Positions 21,170 to 36,165 of a stretch of 64,000 nt of DNA are shown here, in pieces (positions within the stretch are counted from its first letter, which is position 1; every line of letters begins with the position of its first letter). This stretch comes from Ulva prolifera (Eukaryota > Chlorophyta > Ulvophyceae > Ulvales > Ulvaceae). The notes under the pieces are model-generated. The model searched no databases. It saw only the letters and a list, made by a program, of their open reading frames with translations, and was not told the DNA's origin. The stretch covers positions 5,833,315 to 5,897,314 of the forward strand of contig CM041199.1 of the NCBI GenBank assembly GCA_023078555.1, given 5' to 3'. The position numbers and the translations under genes were made by a program.

Positions 21170-22550
21170 GTGGACCACCAGCGTGGTGCTGTGCACTCCG
21201 GTGGAAGGGTGGTGTTGCTCCAAGCTGCGCGTGGGGCACTCGGCCGTGGCGCACAGATTGAAGGCTTGGGACAGTCACAAGGAATATGCCAGCGAGGTGC
21301 TGGAGTCTGAGCAGGCGAGCACTCAGCAGTGGCGCCAGACCCCAACGCCTCGTGCTCTGGGCCACCCGGCTGTCTACCCCGTGTCATGCATCTCCACTCG
21401 GTCCAAGGGACGCCAGGGCACTGCAGCAGTTTCTCCTGGAGCAGCCGGCAACGATGCAGATGACCACAGCCTCGTCATTGACGCCGCTGTCCCCGATGCC
21501 CAGGCGGCCTGCACGCTCTCACGCAGCACGCCTCGCGACACCATGGCTGCCAGCCGTGCAGACGTCCAGACTGATGAGCCGCCTCTGGCCACCCTCCCCC
21601 TCCCCTGGCCCAGATACCATTTTCACGGGGGACCTTGCGTGGCTTCATTGCCTCCATCCCAGAGAAGCGTACAACAGTCCACAGAGCCGCGCCAAGTCCA
21701 GGCAGACCCTGGTCCGGCATGCGCCACTCGACGGTGGCTGCGCTGCGACATGCACTGCAGCAGGAGCCCCCCACCCATGCCCACGCATGAGTTTGGAAGA
21801 TCGCCCTGCGTCAATGAGACCCCACTGGGACACCTCCCGCCCGCCTTCCTCTTGCATTCACTCCCTGGACATGATGGTGTCACCGACCTGATGAACAGAA
21901 AAGCGAGACACCGCCCCGCCCCGACGCACGGCTGCCTGCGTCCTTTCCATTGAGCCCTCCAATTCGCCCCGCCTCCGTGTCCTCACCACCCCACTAGGCA
22001 GTAGCCGGGCCGCATGCGTGAGGAAATGCCCGCTCGCCGCCGAGGATCGCCATCTGTCCAAGCACCGGCACCCCAGCACCACCACGGGCTTAACCTTGCT
22101 CACTGTGCTGCAGATCATCTAGATGAGCACCTGCCCCTGGCAAGTCTACCTCGACCGCAGCCCCGTGCCCCCGCCGCGTCATGCCTCCGCCGAGCAACAC
22201 GCAACGCACCCCCAGCCGCCGTAGAGCTGACCCCATGTACTTGGACTGGCGCCGCCGACTCACTGAGTCCCTCCAGCTTGTCTAGAGTTCCTCAAGTCAT
22301 ACTGCTTGCGGAGGGCGCCCGATAGCGTGCTGGAGTGCTGCCGAATCATGGTTGCGGTGTGCCGGCAGCTGTCACGGCCGCTCGCCGCCGGTGCGGCTCT
22401 ATGGGTCCATCTCCGCTGATGGCAGCATTCCGGTGCCGGATGCGCCGCTCGCGCCAGATACGCAGTTCTGCCTGGACCAGGCGCGTGGCGACGCGGTCCA
22501 GCATGGTGCTGCAAAGGGTCATGTATAGGTGGTGATTGGATCTACGTTAC
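21170..22550 (+). mobile_element. Possible decayed retroelement coding remnant
   Basis: GC-rich stretch with a 256-codon plus-strand frame (21183-21953). Part of it, DDHSLVIDAAVPDAQAACTL, resembles the post-RT region of LINE proteins, where a V-x-D-V-S-V-x-x-P motif is usual, and compares with VIGDVCVSHP in the 8.2-9.5 kb remnant. The rest is Pro/Arg/Ser-rich with no conserved block, and both strands have long open frames because of composition. Weak call. Confidence 0.28.
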
Positions 22551-24309
22551 TTGGACTGCACCACCGCCGAGATTCTCGATGTGACTGAGCCGCGTGAGGC
22601 CACACACGGCCATGTGCAGCCCCAGTAAGTGCTGCTGGCAGTGGTGCATCTCAGCTGCTGACGCCCTGGCCTGACGAGCCCACGCACAGGCCTCCCTCTT
22701 GAAACTGCGGCGAACTGTACTGTCAAAACAAAGCGGGGAATATTGGGCTGGCAAGCCGCCCACGGAATATGAATTGTTCAACTTGAAAGTGTTGCCTTGC
22801 TGCCGTCTGGGCACGCCGCTGTCACGTTTGCTCCCCTTACAGTCTGATGTGCATCATGCACAGGAGCTACGCGAAAGTGGCGCACAGGTCGGTGCGCCAC
22901 GAAGGTGATCCAATGACACGCGATCAGGTCAAAGTGGCTCCAGAGCCTGTAAACGTCCGCTGTTGCTTGTAGTGGATAGAACATTGTGTATATGTACACA
23001 TGGCGTTGATCCGTAATGAATCGGAGGAGTTTACGATGAACTGTGCGTGTCGCCAATACAGCACTATCTCATGACGCGCAAGCGGATACGGGCTGTTGGG
23101 GCCTACGTTTCCGCAAGAAACGCGACGAGAAGCTCAATTGTATAACAGGTTGTGGCTCTGTGTCGATCAATGTCGCCTATCGTGTAGCTCGGGTCATCGT
23201 TCCGCCACTTACCCGCTTGGCTTTGCTTGCACCACTCTGGCGCCCTCGTGGTTAGACAACCATAGACATGCTGTGGCGTTCGTACAATGCATACATCAGG
23301 TTGTTGATGCATCTGTGTTGATCGGTAGCTGTTGCCGCCGTGTAGCGAAGGCTTGCGGTTGTATATGCGTGGGCATCGGCATGTGCACCGTGTCTGGTCT
23401 CTGGCGCAAGGCCACGTTTTGGGCTCCCAAACAGCGAACCATGACACTCAGTTGAGTGACTTTCATCACTCAGAGCTCTACTCTAGCCGCAGGTGTGACC
23501 CGCTGCCCTGTACTTGGTTACCGGTGGGGTATGCGCGTGCCCTTCAGCCTTGGCTCAGTGCCAATGTTAAGGACCGCACAGCCGCTGGACAACTGTACGC
23601 CGTCGTTTAAAATATATTATAGTAATGGACACCACTGGAGTGCTGTCTGACGTACCGGCGTGCATTCCCTGTGCTTCGTTAATTCCAGATCATGCTGTAC
23701 GCATCACCGGACACGATAGTTGCGCGAGGCAACCATCGCCCGCCGACGGCTGAATAAAACGCTTTTAGCTTCAATGGCACCCTCCCAGCTTCTGGAACCT
23801 ATGGAGAGTGTCAAGCCGTCATCCCACTGCGCCGGCTCTTCAATCGGGAAGTTTAAATAGCTCCGGCATGCGTCTCTGACCCCCTACAAGCGTAACGTGC
23901 GGTAGTGGATGTTGATTATACATATTAATACAGTGTCTCGTGTCATTGAGGTCCTTTCCGGTGAAGTTTCTGACCGGCTCACTGTTCCGTGGCACACCTA
24001 AAACCGTAGCCCCTCCTCCCGGGGGTTGTCTCACCCAGTGGGAGCACCCGGCCGGGTGTGCCAAGCTCTCAGGATGCGCTCACGAAGTGTGCCATACATC
24101 ACAGAAGCCGATAAAAACCAATCCAGAATGATAGAATGCTGCTTGTTTCATCACTGCGATGGTACGTATGTTTTTTATTACATCTGGCCATTGGTGCTGG
24201 CACCCATCATTGGTGCTGGCACCCATCACTGGTGCAGGCACCCATCCCCATGCATCATGAACAGGCTGACACCTTGCCGGTGGCATCAACACATCAACAC
24301 ATTGAACTA
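22551..24309. other. No gene recognised
   Basis: About 1.75 kb of unassigned sequence that includes the left flank of the transposon-like unit. I looked for CACTA-like terminal inverted repeats and found none that pair with the 34.2-35.2 kb side. Confidence 0.35.
24189..24245 (+). repeat. 19-bp tandem repeat, three copies
   Basis: Unit CATTGGTGCTGGCACCCAT, two exact copies and a third with changes (CACTGGTGCAGGCACCCAT). It lies just 3' of the stop of the second transposon-unit gene, where subterminal transposase-binding repeats would be expected if the left end is near (inference). Confidence 0.75.
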
Positions 24310-27286
24310 TCATTTTGCAGCCAGTCTGGTGCTCGGTTGCTTCCTGCGTTGTGATGCTCGCCTCTTGAGACCTCCTGGAGCAGGATGTACCCCCTGTGTT
24401 GTGTCAGCCTCCTCATCTTCCTCGGTTCCCTCGGGATCCTGCAAAGGTCGATAGTGTCTTTGACTAAAATGCATGCACACAGTGTCCGGGGCAGTTGCAG
24501 CATGTGGCACAAACACATGTCTCTGTAGACATACATCTCGTTCCATAGCTAACAGGGCTCAGCACAGACTTACCTTGGGGGACAGCTTCGTTTTGGGACG
24601 GCTTGTTGTCCTACGCCTCTTCGAAGGGCCTGTCTCAGCTGCGTCTCCAGGTGCCATTGTCAAAAGACGCTGCGTTTGTTCACTTGTCTCTGTCACCTGG
24701 AAACGTGATGACGTGTGTGTGATTGTCCATGTACAGTATGCTCATGTCACATTAATCTAGCAACATGTTGTGAGTAAAAGGTGACACAATGTCTCAAGCT
24801 TGAGGACTAGGAAGACTCACCGCGTTGCAGATCTCAGTTGTAGCGGCAATCTCTGTTTCTTCGGGCACGCCTGGCACTCGTTGCTCCTGAGCATCTGAAG
24901 CACTTGCTTTGTTGTTGGATGGCCCTGCACGCGACGAACCGTGACCAGACTTGAGAGATACGCCTGTCCTTCGCTGTCTTCGCTCTGATCTGGCTTGTTC
25001 CTGTGCTGCGAGCTGGCGTCTTGCATCTGCCGACTCATCTTCGTCGTCAGAGGAGAACTCATTGTCGGTTGTGATGTCTGGCTTGTTGTCATCAGCTGCC
25101 ACTTGAACCTCAGACCCGGGCTTCTGCGGTGTGACACACCGCATTGTATCGACAAAGTGTTTCAGTGCCAGCGGCGGTGGCATGCCATAAAATTTGAATA
25201 GATCCTCCTGTAATAAGCCACAATGACACTTTCATCGATGCACATGCAGTTGCTCACAACGGATAATGCCCACACATTTCTCGCTGTAGCGCACCACATA
25301 CTCCAACAATGGTTCTAGTAGGAGCACTCCGTGGACATGCAGGAAGCCACCTGAAGGCCCCGGGAAAGGCACATCATCGACTTCAGCTGCTGATGGCGTG
25401 CTCCCTGATCCGTCATCACCTTCCGTAACCTCGGATTCTGCGGATACATGAAAAAATTCTGACAGGTCGCCTGGTTTGGGGGAGTCTGGTGAGTCATCTT
25501 CACGTTCTGGCACCGGCACCTTCCATTCGAGCAGGGGCCGGAGCTTCGAGAAAACGACCATGGCCGCAGGAGCATTTTCTCCCGAGGGAGCAAGGAGTTG
25601 TGACAGATTGCAGGTCTCCGTTGACTGGCGCAGCCGTCGGTCCTTCTGCTCGCATGGACGAGGGAGGTATCTGTCTTCGCAGCTGAAGGCCAACGGCGAA
25701 GCCTCGCTGGGATCCCCGGTTGTGCCCCAGTCTACACCCCAATCTATTACCTCTGCCAAGTTCAGCTCAGGTGGTAGATGGGCAAAAGACGGCACACCGT
25801 TTTCAGTTGCGGTCTGCAGTGTATTGTCATTCTTGAAGGTCTTTGCAAATTCAATTTGCAGGGCCCGCACTCCCTACAAACGTCCCCGCTGGAGGTCACA
25901 GGCCTCCGGGGTTGAGTACTCCATTGTGATGTAGTTGTGTCAGCAGGTACATTTGTAAGGGTACTTGAATACAACATCGGTTCATACCGTTTCTGCGTTT
26001 TTAGCTTTCACTAGGCCAACAATGTCTTTGCGTAGGGCGTCTCTGAACAGTTTCGAGATCAAGCCTGGAACGGCTTCCTTCCTCAGCTCGAAAATGCCCC
26101 CGAGACCTGTCAATGTGTCGTTCACCACATCCTCACCGAAACTCCAGGGGGCTTCCGCCAAGAGCTTGCTGAGTTCGCCGGTCTTGTTCTTGTTGAACAG
26201 CCAAGACAAGAACAACACATCGAATGCAGCTCTTACCTTGCGTGCATTATTGGTGTTGTGACTCTTGGTGAAATGCCTGAAAACAGCTTTGGCGAGCCTC
26301 GCTGCCAACGGCTTGTGGTGTTTGGCAGCGAAACGCTTGATGTATGAAAGCGTCATCCTCAGCACTTCTGTGCGCTCCCTCCGAAAGCTAAATGCCGTCC
26401 GCAGTTGATCAAGGCCTTCTAGGCTCTACAAGTTGGTGTTTCTAAGATTACAAACACGTTCCATCGCATGTACATTCGTCGCTGAAGGTAATGTGCATAC
26501 AAGGCGCCGAGTGGGCTCGTGCGAAGCGACATTGTTCGAAAATCAGTGGATCGGTCAACGCACCAATGTCACACAGTCCCTGGCCCAACCGAGCTTGCCT
26601 CTTAGTTGCTTGCGAATGAGTTGGGACACGACCGCACCAGGGAAAAGAGAAGCTCCCAGTCTATGGATGTCTGCTCCCAAGTACACACTGATATGGATGA
26701 AGGCTTCCATCGAAACTCGCGGCGTGTAAAGTTCGAGATCTCTCAATAATTTCTTTTCTGCCTACATGCGGCCGGGTTGAGCTGGCTCGGTCTAGGCGAA
26801 TTCGAATGGACACATAACAACAACAGTGACTCCCGAGGCAGTGGATGCCAACGCCATTAGGTTGACCAATCGTACCTTTGTGGGATCGCGGTATGTCTTC
26901 TTGCCATTTTTACTTCCCGCCTTCGGCGCAACGTGGGTCGGGACGCGAGAGTTTGGCGACTCCATCCGCATGACTCCAACGAGCCCCTTCTTTCCTGCAG
27001 TCGCCAGCTTCCACACCTCGTCTTTTTGATAAGCTACATACACCACGTCCACAAAAATCGCCTCTGCTGTGTCCGCGTCAAGGCCAGCAATGCCTGGAAC
27101 GTAAAAGAAGCGTTGTGTTGTCTTGGTGTGCACCTTCCGGACGAAAGTATCCTGGCGATCATTGAGGAAAGTTTCGATGCATTCATTTTCTTTTTTCCGT
27201 AGACTAATACACACTTCATCGTCGCCAAGGAGGACCAGTATGGCCTCAAGCTTCCTCACAGCGATGGTCTGCGTCTCCTCGTCCAT
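24310..27286 (-). CDS. Second gene of transposon unit, about 789 aa, unknown function
   Basis: Seven exons fit by phase, all junctions phase 0: 27286-about 26822 (donor ambiguous among adjacent GTT triplets), 26761-26564, 26425-25988, 25873-25244, 25207-24821, 24696-24574 and 24438-24310. The start ATG 27286 reads MDEETQTIAVRKLEAILVLL. The N-terminal half is mixed alpha/beta-like (FFYVPGIAGLDADTAEAIFV; TYRDPTKVRLVNLMALASTA), followed by a helical basic region (SYIKRFAAKHHKPLAARLAK). The C-terminal third is acidic then basic: an EFSSDDEDESADARR stretch, then KRRRTTSRPKTK and GGLKRRASQRRK, which look like nuclear localisation signals. No catalytic motif or known domain was recognised. Intact frame through seven exons argues that it is under selection. 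Nuclear and possibly DNA- or chromatin-associated (inference from charge pattern). Confidence 0.75.
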
Positions 27287-28385
27287 TCTGCGAATTGACT
27301 ACGAGATACGAATTCGATGCACGCAACACATCCGTGCGAATTGAGATAACCTGGGGAGCCCCACAGGCAGACGACGGGGCTGTGAGCTGTTATTTCGAAT
27401 GGCTGCACGACTTCTCGCGACTAGGGCGACGTGGTGGCGTCCGCCAGACACCCACCCATGTAGCCACACAACTAGAGTTCGCCTGTGACGCTAACGAGTC
27501 CGCGTTTTGCACGAAGGGCAAGAAGGTTGTGACATAAGCACGAAAACAAAAATATTCCGCGGTGTATGTGATGCCAATTGCTTGCCCTGTGCGCAAATGT
27601 GCGATCGTGACGACCCGTACTGAGTTTTCTGTATGCTGATGGTAATTAACTAACCGACCTTCGCCGGAAGTGTCATAGACAGCCGACTCCATCAGCAACC
27701 AACGTTTAGGGGCGCTTTATCGGTGCCTATGTGTGTGCCGCTTGATGACACCGCTGACCCCGGTGTTGACGGCCATTGGTTTCTGCGGATTCCTGCAGTA
27801 GGGATACACCAACTCCGCACCCAGACCTCTTGGCCAAACGCGGCAACAACAAAACGGATTCAGGAAGATTTCAGACTGGATCGTGTGCAGAGAGAGTGGC
27901 TATCCCGACGTTGCAGACAGGCTTGTGCCCATAATACCTGCATATACTTGTGGTCTACCGGCCAGTCATCCACTCGAAACAGTAGATGAGTCCTGGGTTG
28001 CAGGTCTGAATAGGAGTAATGTCGATATTATCTGATAGTTACGGCTATGCAGGTGGCTCTTTCACAAGATTGGCTCACCACTGGCCGTGCCAGTGTGATC
28101 AGATTCAACACTGAATATGTACCATTGCCTGATACCACAGTTGAGAATGAATGATTAGATTCCTTTGGCTCGAGAACCTGCATGTTGTGCTATCTGCTGT
28201 TTGCTTTGTTGTAGCCCATGTCGATACTTGGCTGCTACCGCCCAATGTAACATATCGATGATCAGAGTTGCATTGCTGTCAATGCAGTGTGTTTCTAGTC
28301 TGTGAGTGTGTTGTTGTTCTCCTCTACTGCACTTGTGTTCGATATAGAATTTTGCATTACCCGGATTTCTAAAAAAAATTGGACG

Positions 28386-29390
28386 GCCTGGAGCTGGTTG
28401 TGTCCCATCGGTGCCCGAAAATATGTACCTGTCCGGATTCAATGAATCACACCTCTTGTTTAATGACATTTTGTGACAATAAACAAGCTTTCAATACCCG
28501 GACCGCTACTTAGTTTTTTGGACAACTTGCTTGCAAGCAGGAGGTGGCTCTGTCCCATCAGTGCCCGAAAATATGTACCTGTCCGGATTCAATGAATCAC
28601 AGCTCTTGTTTAATGACATTTTGCGACAGTAAACAAGCTTTCAATACCCGGACCGCTACTTTTTTTTTTTGGACAACCTGCTTGGCCACTTGGAGCTGGT
28701 TGTGTCCCATCGGTGCCCGAAAATATGTACCTGTCCGGATTCAATGAATCACAGCTCTTGTTTAATGACATTTTGCGACAGTAAACAAGCTTTCAATACC
28801 TGGACCGCTATTTTTTTTTTTGGACAACCTGCTTGGCCACTTGGAGCTGGTTGTGTCCCATCGGTGCCCGAAAATATGTACCTGTCCGGATTCAATGAAT
28901 CACAGCTCTTGTTTAATGACATTTTGCGACAGTAAACAAGCTTTCAATACCCGGACCGCTACTTTTTTTTTTTGGACAACCTGCTTGGCCACTTGGAGCT
29001 GGTTGTGTCCCATCGGTGCCCGAAAATATGTACCTGTCCGGATTCAATGAATCACAGCTCTTGTTTAATGACATTTTGCGACAGTAAACAAGCTTTCAAT
29101 ACCTGGACCGCTACTTTTTTTTTTTGGACAACCTGCTTGGCCACTTGGAGCTGGTTGTGTCCCATCAGTGCCCGAAAATATGTACCTGTCCGGATTCAAT
29201 GAATCACAGCTCTTGTTTACTGACATTTTGCGACAGTAAACAAGCTTTCAATACCCGGACCGCTACTTTTTTTTTTTGGACAACCTGCTTGGCCACTTGG
29301 AGCTGGTTGTGTCAGATCAGTGCCGGAAAATTATGCAGACGTCCGGATTCCATCGATCACTGCACTTGTTTAATGACATTTCTTCTAGAG
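28386..29390 (+). repeat. 152-bp tandem array, about seven copies
   Basis: Each unit has GTGTCCCATCGGTGCCCGAA, then CTGTCCGGATTCAATGAATC, GTTTAATGACATTTTGCGAC, AACAAGCTTTCAATACC and a run of about ten T before TTGGACAACCTGCTTGGCCA. The word TGTCCCATC recurs at about 28401, 28551, 28703, 28854, 29006 and 29158, with a degenerate last copy near 29309. Outer copies are the most diverged, as expected for unequal exchange. The array lies immediately 3' of the transposase stop (29453, minus strand). Open frames of 76 codons in it are by-products of the period. Confidence 0.92.
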
Positions 29391-29452
29391 TGCCTACCCT
29401 CTTTGTAGTGTTACATGGCATTAGCTAGTAAATAGGACTAGTGCTGCACTAG

Positions 29453-32400
29453 TCACGATGAACCGCCCCCGCCACTATCATCCTCTTGAGATTGGCCACA
29501 AGCCGCCTCAAACAACAAGTCCCGCCTGCCTGTGAACCCCATCTTACTAATGGTAATAAAGTAATCGCCTTTCTCGCGATCTGGTATATACACACATGGG
29601 CATGCAATCTGCCGAATATGGACAATGTGATTGTAACCCTTCTTACGGCGAGTAGGAGACATGAACAAGGCACGAGGAATGGAACATGCCCCTCGTGTAG
29701 GATCGTCGTTGAATGCAGTCTCGAGGCCTGCGCCTTCTCGTATACTGAGGTTGTCCCACAGCGTACCTACAGCTAGCCTAGCCTCGTCATTGGGCCACCC
29801 CATCCCCTGCCTGTGCACCAGCATCAGGTGCTTGATCTCCATGATGCACGCATTATGCTTCGTTCTCGATCGGAACGGCACGTACACGAACTGGTCAGTG
29901 TGTGTCCGGCCATCTGCCGAAGAACCCACTGCTGTCCGAATCACAAATGCCCCACTCTGGATGGTTGCAGAGTCCGAACACATCACCGTGGCCTGAATCC
30001 CCCCGTCCCACACCACACAGCCAGTGGGGACGTGGAAGTTTCCCCTGACATGCCTCTCTCTTAAAACCCCCGCCAACTCCAGCTCACCTACGACTTGATG
30101 CGATCGTCCGGCTTTGGCAGCCATCTCTTCCAAAACCGCTACAAACTTTGAACCCTACAACACACTCAGCGTTACGAAGCCTTTCCTCAATGCACAAATC
30201 ACACAAGAGCATCAAAGAGCATGTTTGATGTTCGATAAACTGACCTCGTCGCCATCGTCTCCAGTGAAGGCTAGCTTCAGCTGATGCAACGCTGTTCCAT
30301 AAACATCACCTGGGTCCATATCCCTGGAGGAGGTGGGTGGCCTGATTCGTAATAACGGCGCATCAATACCTGGATGTTCTTGCTGACAAATCCTCAAACC
30401 CATCTCTACCAGGCACACACCAGCTGAGGCCCTGGGCGCTTGCTTCGTGGAGTGTCCCGTGATCTTGCCCTTGGTGCGTCGTACTAACCTCTCCCCCCAA
30501 TCTTCTCTAAGATAGGCTCCTGGTAATGTGGACAGGACTTGATAAGGCAAATGGGCAAAACACCTATGAATGAGGAGAGTCAGCGTCTTGCATCGCAGGT
30601 GCTCCTCTGCGTATTCTCCAAACTGAAACATCTCCTTCTGGGCCGCCAGGACCTGAGATTCTGTATGTTGTCCGGGTCGATAATGCAAAAAGTATATAGC
30701 AAACTTCCGTAAATGAGTCCACATCTTCAAGATTCCTGGGTGGACTTCATCCCTGGCAACATAAAATAGCATGGCACCTGTGACCTCCACAAACGTGTTG
30801 ACCTCCTCAAAGAGCCATCTACTTACTGCAATTCCTCTGCACCGTGGTCACTGTGGAGATAATGTAAAGCTTACAGCAGGAGTCGACGCCGTGGCTGTGG
30901 CACAACATAGACCTTCACAACACACCTGTTGAGTCTTGGAGGAGTGCGGTTATAAGCCGAGGGGTACTTGAACTTGTCGGTAAAGGTATCCAATCTGTCT
31001 TTCAAGTTTCTTGGCAAACTGAACTTCCGGCCATCCACTTTGAGGCCATTACCGGTGTGGCAAATGAGCTCCAAGAAATTACGCACAAGAGCGTACAGAA
31101 TCGAGTGCGAAACGGGTTCGACAAATGTATGCTGGAAACTGCATTGCACCGACTTTCGACGATCGAGCTTTGCCAAAATTAATACTGGTCCGAAATCAAA
31201 ACACATAATGAGCAGTGGGCGGGACTGGTGATGGGGGTGGGAACACACTCATATCCCTTCAGGTCACTGGCCTGAAAAGAGTTCACACCGCGACACCCGA
31301 GGGATTTATGCTTCTCATTTGCGTATTTAAACCTCTCCTCCCATTTGGCCTGACACTCTATGTGTAGAACGGATGTGAATTCAATGGATGCAAACATGGA
31401 ATGAAGCATGAACAAGCTTACAAGGGCGTCCCACTTTTAATGCAGCAAAGACGAAGTACGTGTTATGGCACGCACCTCTGGTGAGCCGACGCTGTTCGGT
31501 CGAGTTTGGATCAGCTGTGAGAGACCCCCCTCCAGCGGCGAGGGGCGGCAGAGGGAACATTGCCTCTGAGTCCCGGGTGATTTGGTCAGCCTCTTCACTA
31601 CGGATTCGGTGAACGGCATCAGTGATCCTGACTGTGGCGAGTGCTGCCTGGTCAGGTTGCCCCTTCCTCCCGAATTGAACCTTGATGGCCTTCCAGGGAG
31701 TATCCTGCGCAGCCAATCACGAAGGTCTGAACAAATGTAGCCAAGATGGACGAAAGAGGGTAACCTGAAGAGCAGCCCCACACCGAGTCCTCCTCTGGAC
31801 ACAGTATCACTGCCTTGCAAGGTTTCCGAAATCCCACAAAGGCTGTCCACCCCAGCTGCACTCCGTCCAGCAATGATCGGATACCCCGCACACCGCACTT
31901 GTCACACCCTCTGATACCTGTATGGCCCGTTGTGAGCGCCCATATTCGTCTTGCAGGTGTATCCGCAAATCCAAAAACAATGACTGGGAATACGCGACGC
32001 CACTTTTTTCTGTGGCTGTCCCACACCCGGATTGGATCCCCTCGAATAAACTGCTTACCTACAGAGAATGTGCAGACTGCCCCGCTATGTCAATGTTTCG
32101 ACAATGTAGAGGCAACCATGTGACAGGTGCATGCAAGACGCTACGCAAATCAATCAGCACCCATTTGTTGGTTCATTTACCTTCTCTGTCAGTCTGAGTC
32201 GATGGCTCGTGGCATTTGAATTGATCAAGAATGATCGACATGATTTCAGACAAATCTGAAGGCTCCTTCGGGCCTCCAATGAAGGCAAGAGCGTAGCAGG
32301 CCAAATCTGTGTGGCACAAAAAAGCAGGCAAATCGAGGCACTTCAGCCCAATGACTGTGGTAGTATCCCTTCCATGCCCATGCAATTGCACGCCATCAAC

Positions 32401-34191
32401 GAACAGAGCAAACAACAGTGTAAGGGTGTCACCCGCCCCGGTCATGACCTCGTCGCTTGGATCCGTGTCCACAGGCTCATGTAAGGGATCTCGGTAAGGA
32501 GCTGCTGGTGCTGCCTCAACAGGTGGATGCATAGGTACAGCACCACCGACGGGAACCTCAGACTGCGTCTGACTACTATCCAAAGCAGAAAGAGCGCGGC
32601 CATGCGCCTCGTCCAGTTGCTGGTAGAGAGGCGAGTCCAGCATGGCTCGTGACCTCATACCGGCAAAACGAGCAAACTGATCTGCTCTGAACAAGTGGCT
32701 CACCACATCTTCAACTTTGAGCACATAAGCACTGCATGCCACAAATAAATACTAAAACGCATGTTGCCCGCCTCGACACGTGTGTAGGGAAGTGCATACA
32801 GTAGCATCGGATTGAGGTGGGATTAGAGACACGCACCTCCGGACTGCCTGCAGCTGTTTATTTCGCTTCTGAAAACGTTGATTTCCACACCGCTTGCACC
32901 TTTCGCCTTGTCTTTGATGGCGTTGCGCCGAAGGCAGCTGTCGTCCAAAAACAGTGGGACACTGCCCGTTGTCACACATATCCCACGAGTACTCGTCTGG
33001 CTTTTGCAAGCACAATACACCATTGATGATGTGCTCGGACCTGCACATACATGGACCCATGTCTCGTGAACGGACTTGCCAATTGAAGTAAATCATCGAG
33101 ACGGGTAATCATGTACAACGACAATTGCACCCAGATTGTCACAACGGAGGGGCGCCACCTGGGTATCATGTTGTTTTCATCTACACAAAATCCCCCTAGT
33201 GACAACATTCTACAAATTGTGTCCAAACAAGTCCCAGTCATCCCCCCGCGCAACTTGAGCGCTGCGAGACAAAAGCAAGCTTGTCGTACTGTTACTGTAG
33301 AACCCGCTGCCACTGGCTCATCAGCATTCTGCTGATACCAACGGACGGTGCGTGCCTTCGGCACTGCAAGAGCTGGATCCAACTGTTGAAGTTTCAGAGT
33401 GTCCATACGACAGGCCAACTCAGCTGTCAGTATCTCCATGGAAAGGTCTGATCCTGCACACAAACCAGACGCACGGGCATCACGCAGAAGATCATCGACA
33501 CCTGAACCCCCACGAGCCCTCCAGTCATCAACGGCGAATCTGACAAAGTCCTCAATATCCTGCATCCAAGAACAGAGCATGGTGCGCTGGCATGCAAGTG
33601 GATCATACACCCACCGTTGGCTATCTGGGCATGAGCATGGACCTATGGATACGCACATAGCTTTGGTAACACGAAAGGGCGTACGGCGTTGATGAAGTTG
33701 TCAGTGTCATCAATGTCTGGGTGTACGGGGAGAGAGCCGTCAGTGGGACTGTCGTCAACCTCCCAATGCAGAATCGTTTCATCCTCATCATCTGATGGCA
33801 GATACGGACATTGCGATGTCACCAGATCAACCAACTTCGGCGCTTCTCCGTTTTCAGAGTCCGAAGTGTCATCTACTTCGGGTTCGTTGATCGGATTGGG
33901 GCTGTTAGGCAGATCCGGCAGTTCCAATGCCTCCGCAGGTGGCGACGACTCTGTCTCGGCAGGCTTTAGAGGTGCAACGTACCGGCAGACAGTTGGCGTT
34001 ACTTCATTTGGAACAGGATAAAAAGAAGTTACCCCAGCTTCGCGAGCGAGTTGCGCCTGCTCTTGGTGATTCGGATTACGCAGATGCCTGCTCAAGTTTT
34101 TCGTGAAGCGACACGGTTTATCACAGACAGAACAGAAATACCAATCGTGGTCCAAGGCTACGAAGAAATCTCCGGACCGCTTCTCCGCCAT
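29453..34191 (-). CDS. Transposase, Tnp2/CACTA (Transposase_21)-like, multi-exon
   Basis: Placed exons: 32731-32181, 32058-31784, 31704-31476, 30836-30245 and 30154-29453. Further coding blocks lie at about 34191-33660, 33620-33180, 33090-32838 and 31400-30927, with some joins unresolved. N-terminus from ATG 34191 has a C2H2 finger (YFCSVCDKPCRFTKNLSRHL plus a later His). A second zinc-binding block has CDNGQC and CKRCGNQRF. The core resembles Tnp2-type transposases: FALFVDGVQLHGHGRDTTT, IGGPKEPSDLSEIMSIILDQ, FGFADTPARRIWALTTGHTG then CDKCGVRG. The 3' part has WLFEEVNTFVEVTG, HRCFAHLPYQV and DWGERLVRR, like the post-catalytic domain of CACTA transposases. Catalytic acidic residues could not be assigned by eye. 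KDZ and Plavaka transposases were considered; ADTPAR...GHTG..GC..C favours the Tnp2 group. Length about 1,300 aa (estimate). Confidence 0.72.
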
Positions 34192-36165
34192 TACTCATGT
34201 GCAAGGGTGGCAATCACGGCGATGCTTGCGAGACATGTGTACATGAACGACGCACCCACAAGGCCGGGGCACGCTGGCACCAATAGTACCGATTGCAGTG
34301 TCATCGAAATCAATAGCAAAGAGTGACGGTGGCTTCGTACGCCACGGGAACCTTGGTTGCATAAACGCAAAGCATCCTACGTATCGCGCTAGAGCCACAG
34401 CCCCGGACGCCACCGGTAAGCCCGCTTAATCGCCAGGCATGGCCATCGATCGGGCCTAGCAGAATTCGATAACATACAGCACTTGCATGAAGCACTTACT
34501 CACTCCGGAGGGTGCTGGTATCTGCTCCAGCTTGGAGTGATCGGCCGGAACGCAAACGTTACTAACGCACTTAGTAACGAAGTAGTGCACGCTTGACTCA
34601 AAGCCATATCCGACAAAGCCGTGTATGTGGCTACGCATACTTACTGTAGTTTTACGACGGGGCCCCAACCACATGTAACTCACCTGGATATGGCGCACCC
34701 ATATTCACGGCGCACCGAGCGGGTGGGGCTCCAGCCCGTGTGCGGTTGAGGCCAACCTGCTCAAGTGGGACACATATGGCTTGAATTGAGTCTACAATAT
34801 AAGAATTGATAATAAGGGGGCACTGCACCCCATTTTAACATCTTGGCAGCCCAGTTCCCATGTGGAACACCTGCTGGTAGCTCACCCAGACGTCTGGCGC
34901 ACCCCAAAAGTGTGCCTCAAGTGCACCTGGTACTTGCCACCTCCACACTACACGATCATACACCTAGGCAATCGATGCTCAAGCACTGCATGTCCACACC
35001 GTACACTCATAAACGCTGTCACAGCAGTAACGGAGGTCTTTCACGGAATATATTTATTGGATCACCTTTCTGTGGATCACCCAACCATGTGGACCACCTG
35101 GGTGAGTCATGTCCACCGTAGCTCCTGTGTGTGATCATGCAAAGTAGCTGAGTGTGGAATTGCTGTAGCATTGGTGTGGGACAGGTCGCCCAGCAGTGGC
35201 CAACTTCTCACCCATGTACGCATATAAACACGTGGTTTGGGATCGCAACATCATTGTAGCTAACGGTAAATGTATTATCAAGATTCAGGAAATGGTGACG
35301 CTGGATGTTGGTGCATGCCACCTGATCGCGAGCATGCTTTTCTTACGGGGTGGATACAAAAAGGTACCCTCTAATGTGTGTCACCGGGAATGCACGTGAC
35401 TACCGTTTGTCAGCATGTGTCCTTGATACCTCAGCATGCCTCGTGGGCCGAGTTGGGTTCGTTAATGTCGTGTTTGCTGCTTCCCGGCTGTGACATGATG
35501 CAGCTCTTGGGTAGGCGCCACGTAAAGCGGCAAAACACATTTGCATACGCCTTGTGACCAAATAAAAGACTTCATTTGCATATATAAAACTGAACGCAAT
35601 CATCGAGGTGGGCGGGGTGTGCGCCAGCGCACTCTGGTCCCAGTACTGGTCGAGTGTAAACAGCGATATGTTACGTGTCACATATCAATTAAAGATGGCT
35701 TGAAGCTGTGACGATGAAATTTCCAAAACGATCAACTCGCCTGTGGAACATATATAAAGCTCATGTTTACACGAACCAACATTCCTGTGTGAATGTCGTA
35801 CATGGCTCTCAGCTGAAAAAGTAAATAACAAAGTGGATAATAATGAAGGTTTCAGATTTTGCAAACACCGCTTCGCTCCAGTATGTGTACTGCACGGACT
35901 GATTTTGGATGCGATTGTCGCCATGCTCGGTGGAACGATGCCTACCAAAACAGCGCTGCGCGCCACGGTCATTGAAAGCTAACACCACCGATAGTTTCAC
36001 CTGTATCGAAAGTTACGTCTTTCACAGTGATCTGTGGTGTTCCCGCGCATGGTGCATCCAGACGCGCTGCCGAGGTGTCTCTGGCAGAGTTAGTGCGGAC
36101 TTGTGTTCTATACAGAATGATGTGATCATTTCAGTGTTACTGAAAACGCGAGCAAGCATCACGGA
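34192..36165. other. No gene recognised; right flank of transposon unit and SEC8 5' region
   Basis: About 2 kb. At 34860-35110 the words GG(A/T)(A/T)CACC and CCACCTGG recur several times (for example 35060, 35077, 35091), possibly subterminal transposon repeats, but no inverted match on the left side was found. The promoter of SEC8 should lie within the last few hundred bases; nothing definite is visible. Confidence 0.35.

Follow-up and report, generated by a model that had tools for sequence, protein, structure and literature searches.

A two-gene transposon lineage of wide EnSpm/CACTA kinship in Ulva prolifera, with a site array at its ends and a candidate end-binding partner protein

The stretch of DNA analysed here, called the window throughout, comprises 64,000 nucleotides of the green alga Ulva prolifera (assembly GCA_023078555.1, contig CM041199.1, positions 5,833,315 to 5,897,314), and positions are counted from its first letter. 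The window contains a transposon of 12,271 bp on the minus strand (22859..35129), in which a transposase gene is followed in the same orientation by a second gene of no recognised family, hereafter gene 2. An earlier note, made from the letters alone, had described a two-gene unit at 24310..34191. These limits are exact for the genes, with the transposase ATG at 34191 and the gene-2 stop codon ending at 24310, both on the minus strand. The element itself reaches past them, to 22859 and 35129, and alignment with three close copies on C1, C3 and C6 makes its limits sharp. It starts with CACAGGAGCTACG and ends with the complement (CACAGGAGCTACG...CGTAGCTCCTGTG, terminal letters CACAG...CTGTG), giving terminal inverted repeats (TIRs) of 13 bp at 35117..35129 (5' end) and 22859..22871 (3' end). 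A target site duplication (TSD) of the letters TG flanks the element at 22857-22858 and 35130-35131.

The same structure is found in copies elsewhere in the genome, the only one covered by our genome-wide counts (88.9 Mb, 44 contigs). PF00504 has 38 matches to light-harvesting proteins in this genome, and the two inspected resemble LHCII of the green lineage. The earlier note expected TIRs and duplications of 2-3 bp in the flanks of copies, and besides the 13-bp TIRs we find a 2-bp TSD in seven of the nine elements with both ends read. The close copies on C1 and C6 have TC/TC and CT/CT, two members of a second subfamily AC/AC and TT/TT (C9:1327655 and C6:2334580), and two further elements TT/TT and AA/AA. 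The exceptions are the C3 copy, which lies inside a rearranged cluster and has flanks AG/CG without a TSD match, and a copy at C1:10.0 Mb, in which the first letter is altered at the 5' end. Other subfamily ends read carry CACAG or CACAT. Gene 2 is broken by frameshifts or stops in three other copies of the window subfamily, so that the window copy is the only one of four with this gene open. The window copy is structurally complete and probably autonomous. Nested and inverted elements of the clade are clustered at C3:4784000-4880000, including a second, inverted right end of the window subfamily (L011). An Rfam scan of 22000-36000 yielded nothing above the gathering score.

The transposase gene (29453..34191, minus strand) was modelled by tblastx with a relative at C1:9.38 Mb and a splice search. 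The model has ten exons (34191-33685, 33559-33159, 33040-32837, 32731-32181, 32058-31811, 31704-31476, 31357-31249, 31138-30926, 30836-30245 and 30154-29453), all GT-AG, and encodes 1,251 residues without an internal stop, as the single open solution among the splice variants tried. A suspected frameshift between exons 2 and 3 was ruled out, the intron being merely longer than first allowed. Transposase blocks of the window show 38-77% identity to those of the C1:9.38 Mb relative. Motifs of catalytic type follow one another as FVDGVQL, FADTPA, CDKC, HRCFAH and DWGERL, which we assign by eye to D, D, C(2)C, H(4)H and E. The H(4)H and the E are retained in all seven elements compared over the exon concerned. 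Pfam searches with the full protein returned zinc-finger matches below threshold and nothing else, including a possible C2H2 finger at residues 18-39 (zf-C2H2, E=0.0093, 16.8 bits against a curated cutoff of 25.2). PF02992 (Transposase_21) has no match over cutoff anywhere in the genome, and one at E 0.03 lies away from the window element. DUF4218 is absent from the window protein and is matched below cutoff by two distant relatives (E=0.0037 and 0.077). Scans of viral contigs with one transposase exon and with gene-2 exon 2 gave no match.

The EnSpm/CACTA-Mirage-Chapaev-Transib (CMCT) clade is characterised by D, D and E, in which C(2)C and H(3-4)H come after the second D and ahead of the E, by mostly 5'-CA..TG-3' ends and by TSDs of 2-5 bp (PMC12730594). 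The window element agrees in its end letters, its TSD length and its order of motifs, the motifs being assigned by eye. Plant CACTA elements are recognised by PF02992 and a 3-bp TSD, and the window element has neither, its TSD being 2 bp. The earlier label Tnp2/CACTA-like is thus right only in a wide sense, through motif order read by eye and termini, and fails in Pfam, where PF02992 stays below cutoff. Among green algae, a CACTA element, Idaten, is described from Volvox carteri (PMC4158355). Some CMCT lineages carry TET/JBP partners, and the available part of the source describes none like gene 2 (PMC12730594).

Gene 2 (24310..27286, minus strand) has six exons (27286-26876, 26425-25988, 25873-25295, 25207-24821, 24696-24574 and 24438-24310) joined by GT-AG introns, all of phase 0, and encodes 688 residues. 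The frame contains no stop across this model, as the earlier note had reported for its own version of seven exons and 789 residues. Relatives support the shorter structure; the seventh exon was not recovered, is unneeded in relatives and is probably not part of the gene. Exon blocks recur in ten other subfamily loci (L036, L040, L044-L051) at 26-60% identity, with introns mostly of phase 0, over those exons that could be called in each locus. Exon 1 is present in eight of the ten, aligned from residue 1 in six and from residue 4 in two; the script sought an ATG near the aligned start and gives no independent proof of where the gene begins. No exon 1 is detectable before exon 2 in L040, L048 and L055, which represent two subfamilies (L055 is a near copy of L048); the exon may have been lost or exchanged for another, or have diverged beyond recognition. 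Exon 3 ends at (Y/F/W)V directly followed by GT in six of eight loci with a script-called end; in L045 and L046 the script chose a GT further on, which was trimmed by hand, and in L047 and L049 the end was left uncalled.

Two parts of the gene-2 protein stand out. Exon 2 (25988..26425) is well conserved and partly strongly basic, and its alignment and composition suggest it as the candidate DNA-binding part. Exons 4-6 (24310..25207) encode a C-terminal part with acidic stretches plus basic, nuclear-signal-like stretches, and the acidic-then-basic order remarked on earlier is real and recurs in relatives. Gene 2 shows signs of purifying selection at the sequence level, with ratios of nonsynonymous to synonymous change (dN/dS) of 0.38 and 0.40 for L044 against L052 and L053. 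Synonymous change is saturated in most comparisons between subfamilies, for which dN over exons 1-4 is 0.45-0.64. Gene-2 exons are 41-60% identical between the window and the C1:9.38 Mb relative. Between subfamilies the protein is 29-50% identical, and one well-conserved transposase exon is 67-82% identical. The earlier statement that the product matches nothing held in Pfam, PDB and profile searches, none of which gave a usable match. The best hits were taken as chance (PDB E 0.14; Pfam IMS E 0.0047 in one of 11 members). The single-protein searches used a version of 695 residues, from which the final model drops the seven residues ending exon 3.

The two genes occur together across the genome. 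A transposase probe (window 30218-30847) was used to collect 220 candidates, of which 150 were scored and then merged, with loci of E below 1e-16 counted as the clade. This gave 57 clade loci, a single one of them at just 35% identity, and 87 others. Most of the latter are 30-36% identical, and a few are short clade fragments. A probe of gene-2 exon 2, with all 64 of 64 candidates scored and loci merged at E up to 8e-4, gave 59 loci; three weaker rows (E 0.007-0.16) were excluded from the count. Downstream of a clade transposase, on the same strand and within 20 kb, lie 53 of the 59 gene-2 loci (49 within 6 kb), and gene 2 accompanies 51 of the 57 clade transposases. The further joint copies that the earlier note had proposed to search for are therefore numerous, and neither of the findings it named as fatal to its idea, transposase copies always lacking gene 2 or a single-copy gene 2, appears in this genome. 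Only one of the 87 distant loci is followed on its own strand by gene 2 at a distance of up to 15 kb, namely C3:4847897, a short 56%-identical fragment that belongs to the clade by identity. Six gene-2 loci have no clade transposase up to 20 kb away, and one of these sits beside a clade fragment.

The ends of the elements carry a further shared feature, an array of short sites. The motif GGTGNNCCA was spotted near the ends of the window element, where ten of its 13 hits within the element fall in the outer 2.4 kb. In 1,800 bases taken from six ends that belong to four other subfamilies, its core GGGTGNNC is present 21 times, compared with 0.68 per kb in the part of the window beyond the element. 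With one mismatch to the core allowed, 11 ends of six subfamilies were scored (both ends for the window and subfamilies 2, 6 and 10; one each for subfamilies 4 and 5). The sites lie in a nearly fixed register 22-70 bp inside the ends, usually four in the arrangement -+++ at the 5' end and three as -++ at the 3' end. At the 5' end, positions 23(-), 31, 48 and 63 are occupied in three of four cases (the window and subfamilies 2 and 10), and 31, 48 and 63 in subfamily 6. Five of seven 3' ends have sites at 22(-), 31/32 and 44/45, one of these with an extra site at 72. The 3' ends of the window element and of subfamily 4 have two (+) sites only, in the window at 32 and 45 with a degenerate inverted site. 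Three or more sites are present in nine of the 11 ends, compared with 242 of 20,000 background 90-mers. The sites carry letters specific to each subfamily. Repeated subterminal sites that vary between families and occur at both ends are a mark of the TnpA-like class, and they are found in the window element and in subfamilies 2, 6 and 10.

A genome search for the 3' layout, with the inverted site left out of the pattern, recovered 54 hits, against three for the reversed pattern. The inverted site reappears in these hits as CACC at positions 20-31 in 48 of 54 (27 of 31 distinct sequences), and the first CAC after position 20 falls exactly at 25 in 46. Among distinct sequences, 66 of 90 comparisons between sites of the same end give the same variable letter, a level that none of 10,000 permutations reaches and that the kinship of the ends inflates. 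Seventeen hits are placed as expected relative to a gene 2 no more than 16 kb away, 15 of them at 5 kb or less. The array is associated with this clade: only three of the 87 distant transposases have a hit up to 16 kb away where about 1.7 are expected, which is chance level, as scored by position with a pattern drawn from the clade. Thirteen of the 54 hits share one sequence type, CACAGGAG(C/T)TACAGCAAGTTGGCTCACC..., and are probably a family of short non-autonomous copies.

We suggest, at a probability of about 0.6, that the window element represents an undescribed two-gene lineage of the wide EnSpm/CACTA (CMCT) clade, in which gene 2 is a TnpA-like helper that binds the element ends. The earlier note had suggested that the unit could be a CACTA lineage not yet described that brings along a helper or a silencing-evasion factor; that proposal is supported, and the array at the ends favours the helper over evasion. 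The transposase belongs to a wide clade, the partner and, as far as tested, the array are limited to the lineage, and the letters of the sites vary at places that are largely kept. The simplest account of these observations is a partner that would bind the array and hand the ends to the transposase, in the manner of TNPA in En/Spm (PMC2613891). In that system both proteins are needed, the subterminal repeats are bound by TNPA, and there is little similarity among the TNPA-like proteins of different elements (PMC2613891). Under the helper reading, gene 1 would encode a DDE transposase that cleaves the DNA at its 13-bp CACAG termini and gives rise to the 2-bp target duplications. The termini and duplications are observed, and the catalytic role is predicted from the motifs. 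The gene-2 protein would bind GGGTGNNC-type sites inside both ends, bring the ends into line and load the transposase, taking the part of TnpA in maize En/Spm. The unequal numbers of sites, four against three, could let the machinery distinguish left from right. We infer that gene 2, rather than the possible zinc finger of the transposase, would read the sites. A bolder proposal, which we hold only tentatively and would put at slightly worse than even odds, is that a new protein family, with an undescribed DNA-binding fold, defines a distinct lineage of CMCT transposons and co-evolves with an asymmetric terminal code of four and three sites in nearly fixed register. End recognition would then have moved from the transposase to a fast-changing partner, and each subfamily would mobilise only its own ends.

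The likeness to En/Spm of maize (TnpD, TnpA) and to soybean Tgmt* extends to CAC...GTG ends, a 13-bp TIR, a transposase with a second protein and subterminal sites (PMC2613891). In En/Spm one large gene yields the second protein through alternative splicing (PMC2613891), whereas gene 2 of the window is a separate gene. The window element also differs from En/Spm in its 2-bp rather than 3-bp TSD and in a transposase without a Pfam Transposase_21 match. Gene 2 was compared with TnpA through Pfam and PDB only. In angiosperm CACTA elements a second open reading frame (ORF) and subterminal repeats are normal (PMC8978399). Jozin of Chenopodium resembles the window element in its TIRs, its direct and inverted subterminal repeats and its transposase ORF accompanied by a second ORF of unassigned function (PMC8978399). 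Jozin, however, has about 19-23 copies of a 12-bp motif over both ends (PMC8978399), in contrast to three or four sites within about 70 bp in the Ulva lineage. Its ORF 1 encodes TAD, Transposase_21, DUF4218 and DUF4216 (PMC8978399), which were undetected in the window transposase. Nuwa, a Harbinger element, likewise combines a transposase with a separate DNA-binding protein, but that partner is a Myb/SANT protein (PMC12730594), a match that gene 2 lacks.

Several observations weigh against the helper reading. Searches of Pfam, PDB and profiles recognised no DNA-binding domain in gene 2, and single-sequence AF2 models reached a pLDDT of only 47 for exon 2 and 40 for exon 1 and were discarded. 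The possible C2H2 finger of the transposase could itself read the sites. Two other near pairs of gene 2 give dN/dS values of 0.67 and 0.72, from few changes. Because other transposase blocks are only 38-77% identical, gene 2 is surely the faster evolving only in comparison with one well-conserved exon. Divergence of the two genes is weakly correlated (Spearman 0.27, p 0.24), and that of gene-2 exon 2 alone against the transposase somewhat more (0.52, p 0.015), over 21 pairs from seven elements of which two are near copies. The motif was originally chosen by eye, and inner segments of the elements hold 21 cores in 6,800 bases, richer than the window background. The kinship of the ends and the clade-derived pattern mentioned above count on the same side. 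Most of the 59 gene-2 loci lack an exact pattern hit, and no gene 2 stands beside 37 of the 54 hits. These 37 are taken for non-autonomous derivatives that keep the ends.

Between the two genes lies a tandem array of 6.5 units of 152 bp (28389..29381), which the earlier note had also placed there and which only part of the lineage carries. Units occur in the window subfamily, in subfamily 2, at C1:1.50 Mb and at three derivative-like places only. The tested unit contains none of three terminal-type patterns. With this limited distribution and without such patterns, the 152-bp array is ruled out as a lineage-wide target. Units are about 80-87% identical between subfamilies (window 28389-29381; C9:1333085, C6:2340012, C9:3284589 and C1:1501879), while the gene-2 proteins of these subfamilies are only about 30-40% identical. 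Conservation of the unit could reflect either constraint or exchange between elements. The number of units is 6.5 in the window, about 15 in the C1 copy and about 1.5 in the C3 and C6 copies.

The array is relevant to the best-placed rival, in our view an unlikely one, in which gene 2 is a VANC-like anti-silencing factor. Such a protein would bind non-coding repeats of its own family, strip silencing marks and thereby aid transposition indirectly. The transposase of VANDAL elements belongs to a different superfamily from that of the window element. The VANC partner in Arabidopsis has non-coding targets that are specific to the family and change fast (PMC10398659), and in this it resembles what is proposed for gene 2. 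VANC proteins recognise short motifs within tandem repeats, non-coding and particular to their family, that diverge rapidly (PMC10398659); gene 2 has diverged between subfamilies, each subfamily has its own letters in the end sites, and the gene has a non-coding tandem array as its neighbour. Yet the targets of VANC are tandem repeats (PMC10398659), whereas what the ends of the Ulva lineage share is a nearly fixed-register array at the termini, where a transposition complex would form. The restriction of the 152-bp array to part of the lineage and the lack of the three terminal-type patterns in the tested unit also count against this rival.

A transposase that reads the terminal array by itself seems a little less probable again. 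Its N-terminal C2H2 finger or internal domains would contact the sites, and gene 2 would serve nuclear import, chromatin contact or expression. The weak C2H2 match at residues 18-39 points this way, and contact with chromatin would fit the gene-2 C-terminus with its acidic and basic stretches, but the match stays under the curated cutoff and, by position, the array occurs near distant transposases of the same kind only at chance level. A passenger origin, in which the element once picked up gene 2 from its host, is very improbable: gene 2 resembles no known transposon protein in Pfam, PDB and profile searches, and a host copy might be among the six loci away from clade transposases, but the gene keeps its position and orientation across diverged subfamilies and shows signs of purifying selection.

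The end-binding helper remains our preferred account of gene 2, and parts of it have precedents. A second ORF with subterminal repeats is already known in CACTA elements (PMC8978399), as is a second protein that binds subterminal repeats in En/Spm (PMC2613891). In the literature searched, which included few subscription papers and no Repbase, we found no separate gene of unrecognised family that recurs with an asymmetric site code in nearly fixed register. The second protein of CACTA elements is said to be poorly conserved and to bind subterminal repeats, and its identity and logic are obscure outside a few plants. A single Ulva genome holds about 59 loci of one partner family in many diverged subfamilies, each subfamily read having its own version of the site array. 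A rule linking partner-protein sequence to DNA sequence is therefore directly testable. The lineage also offers a compact two-gene system for study in laboratory algae.

Some observations concern neighbouring or derived sequences. At C2:10757276, C9:3363591 and C5:6094491, 152-bp units lie about 3.3 kb from a 3' end of the element type, in each case one of the 37 pattern hits beside no gene 2, and no gene-2 hit is listed; these are likely non-autonomous derivatives that retain the array. Two distant CACTA-like elements, L075 and L076 (C5:8639001-8649000 and C5:8838701-8848700), are similar to each other over nearly all of 10 kb. They carry a second ORF of 705 residues that has no Pfam match and whose end resembles a C48/Ulp1 protease by eye. 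We considered homology of gene 2 to this ORF and rejected it, as no kinship is detectable. The first kilobase of both elements contains repeats offset by 64 bp. In the window, just downstream of gene 2, a 19-bp unit is repeated 3.1 times (24189-24246) and contains both GGTGC and GCACC.

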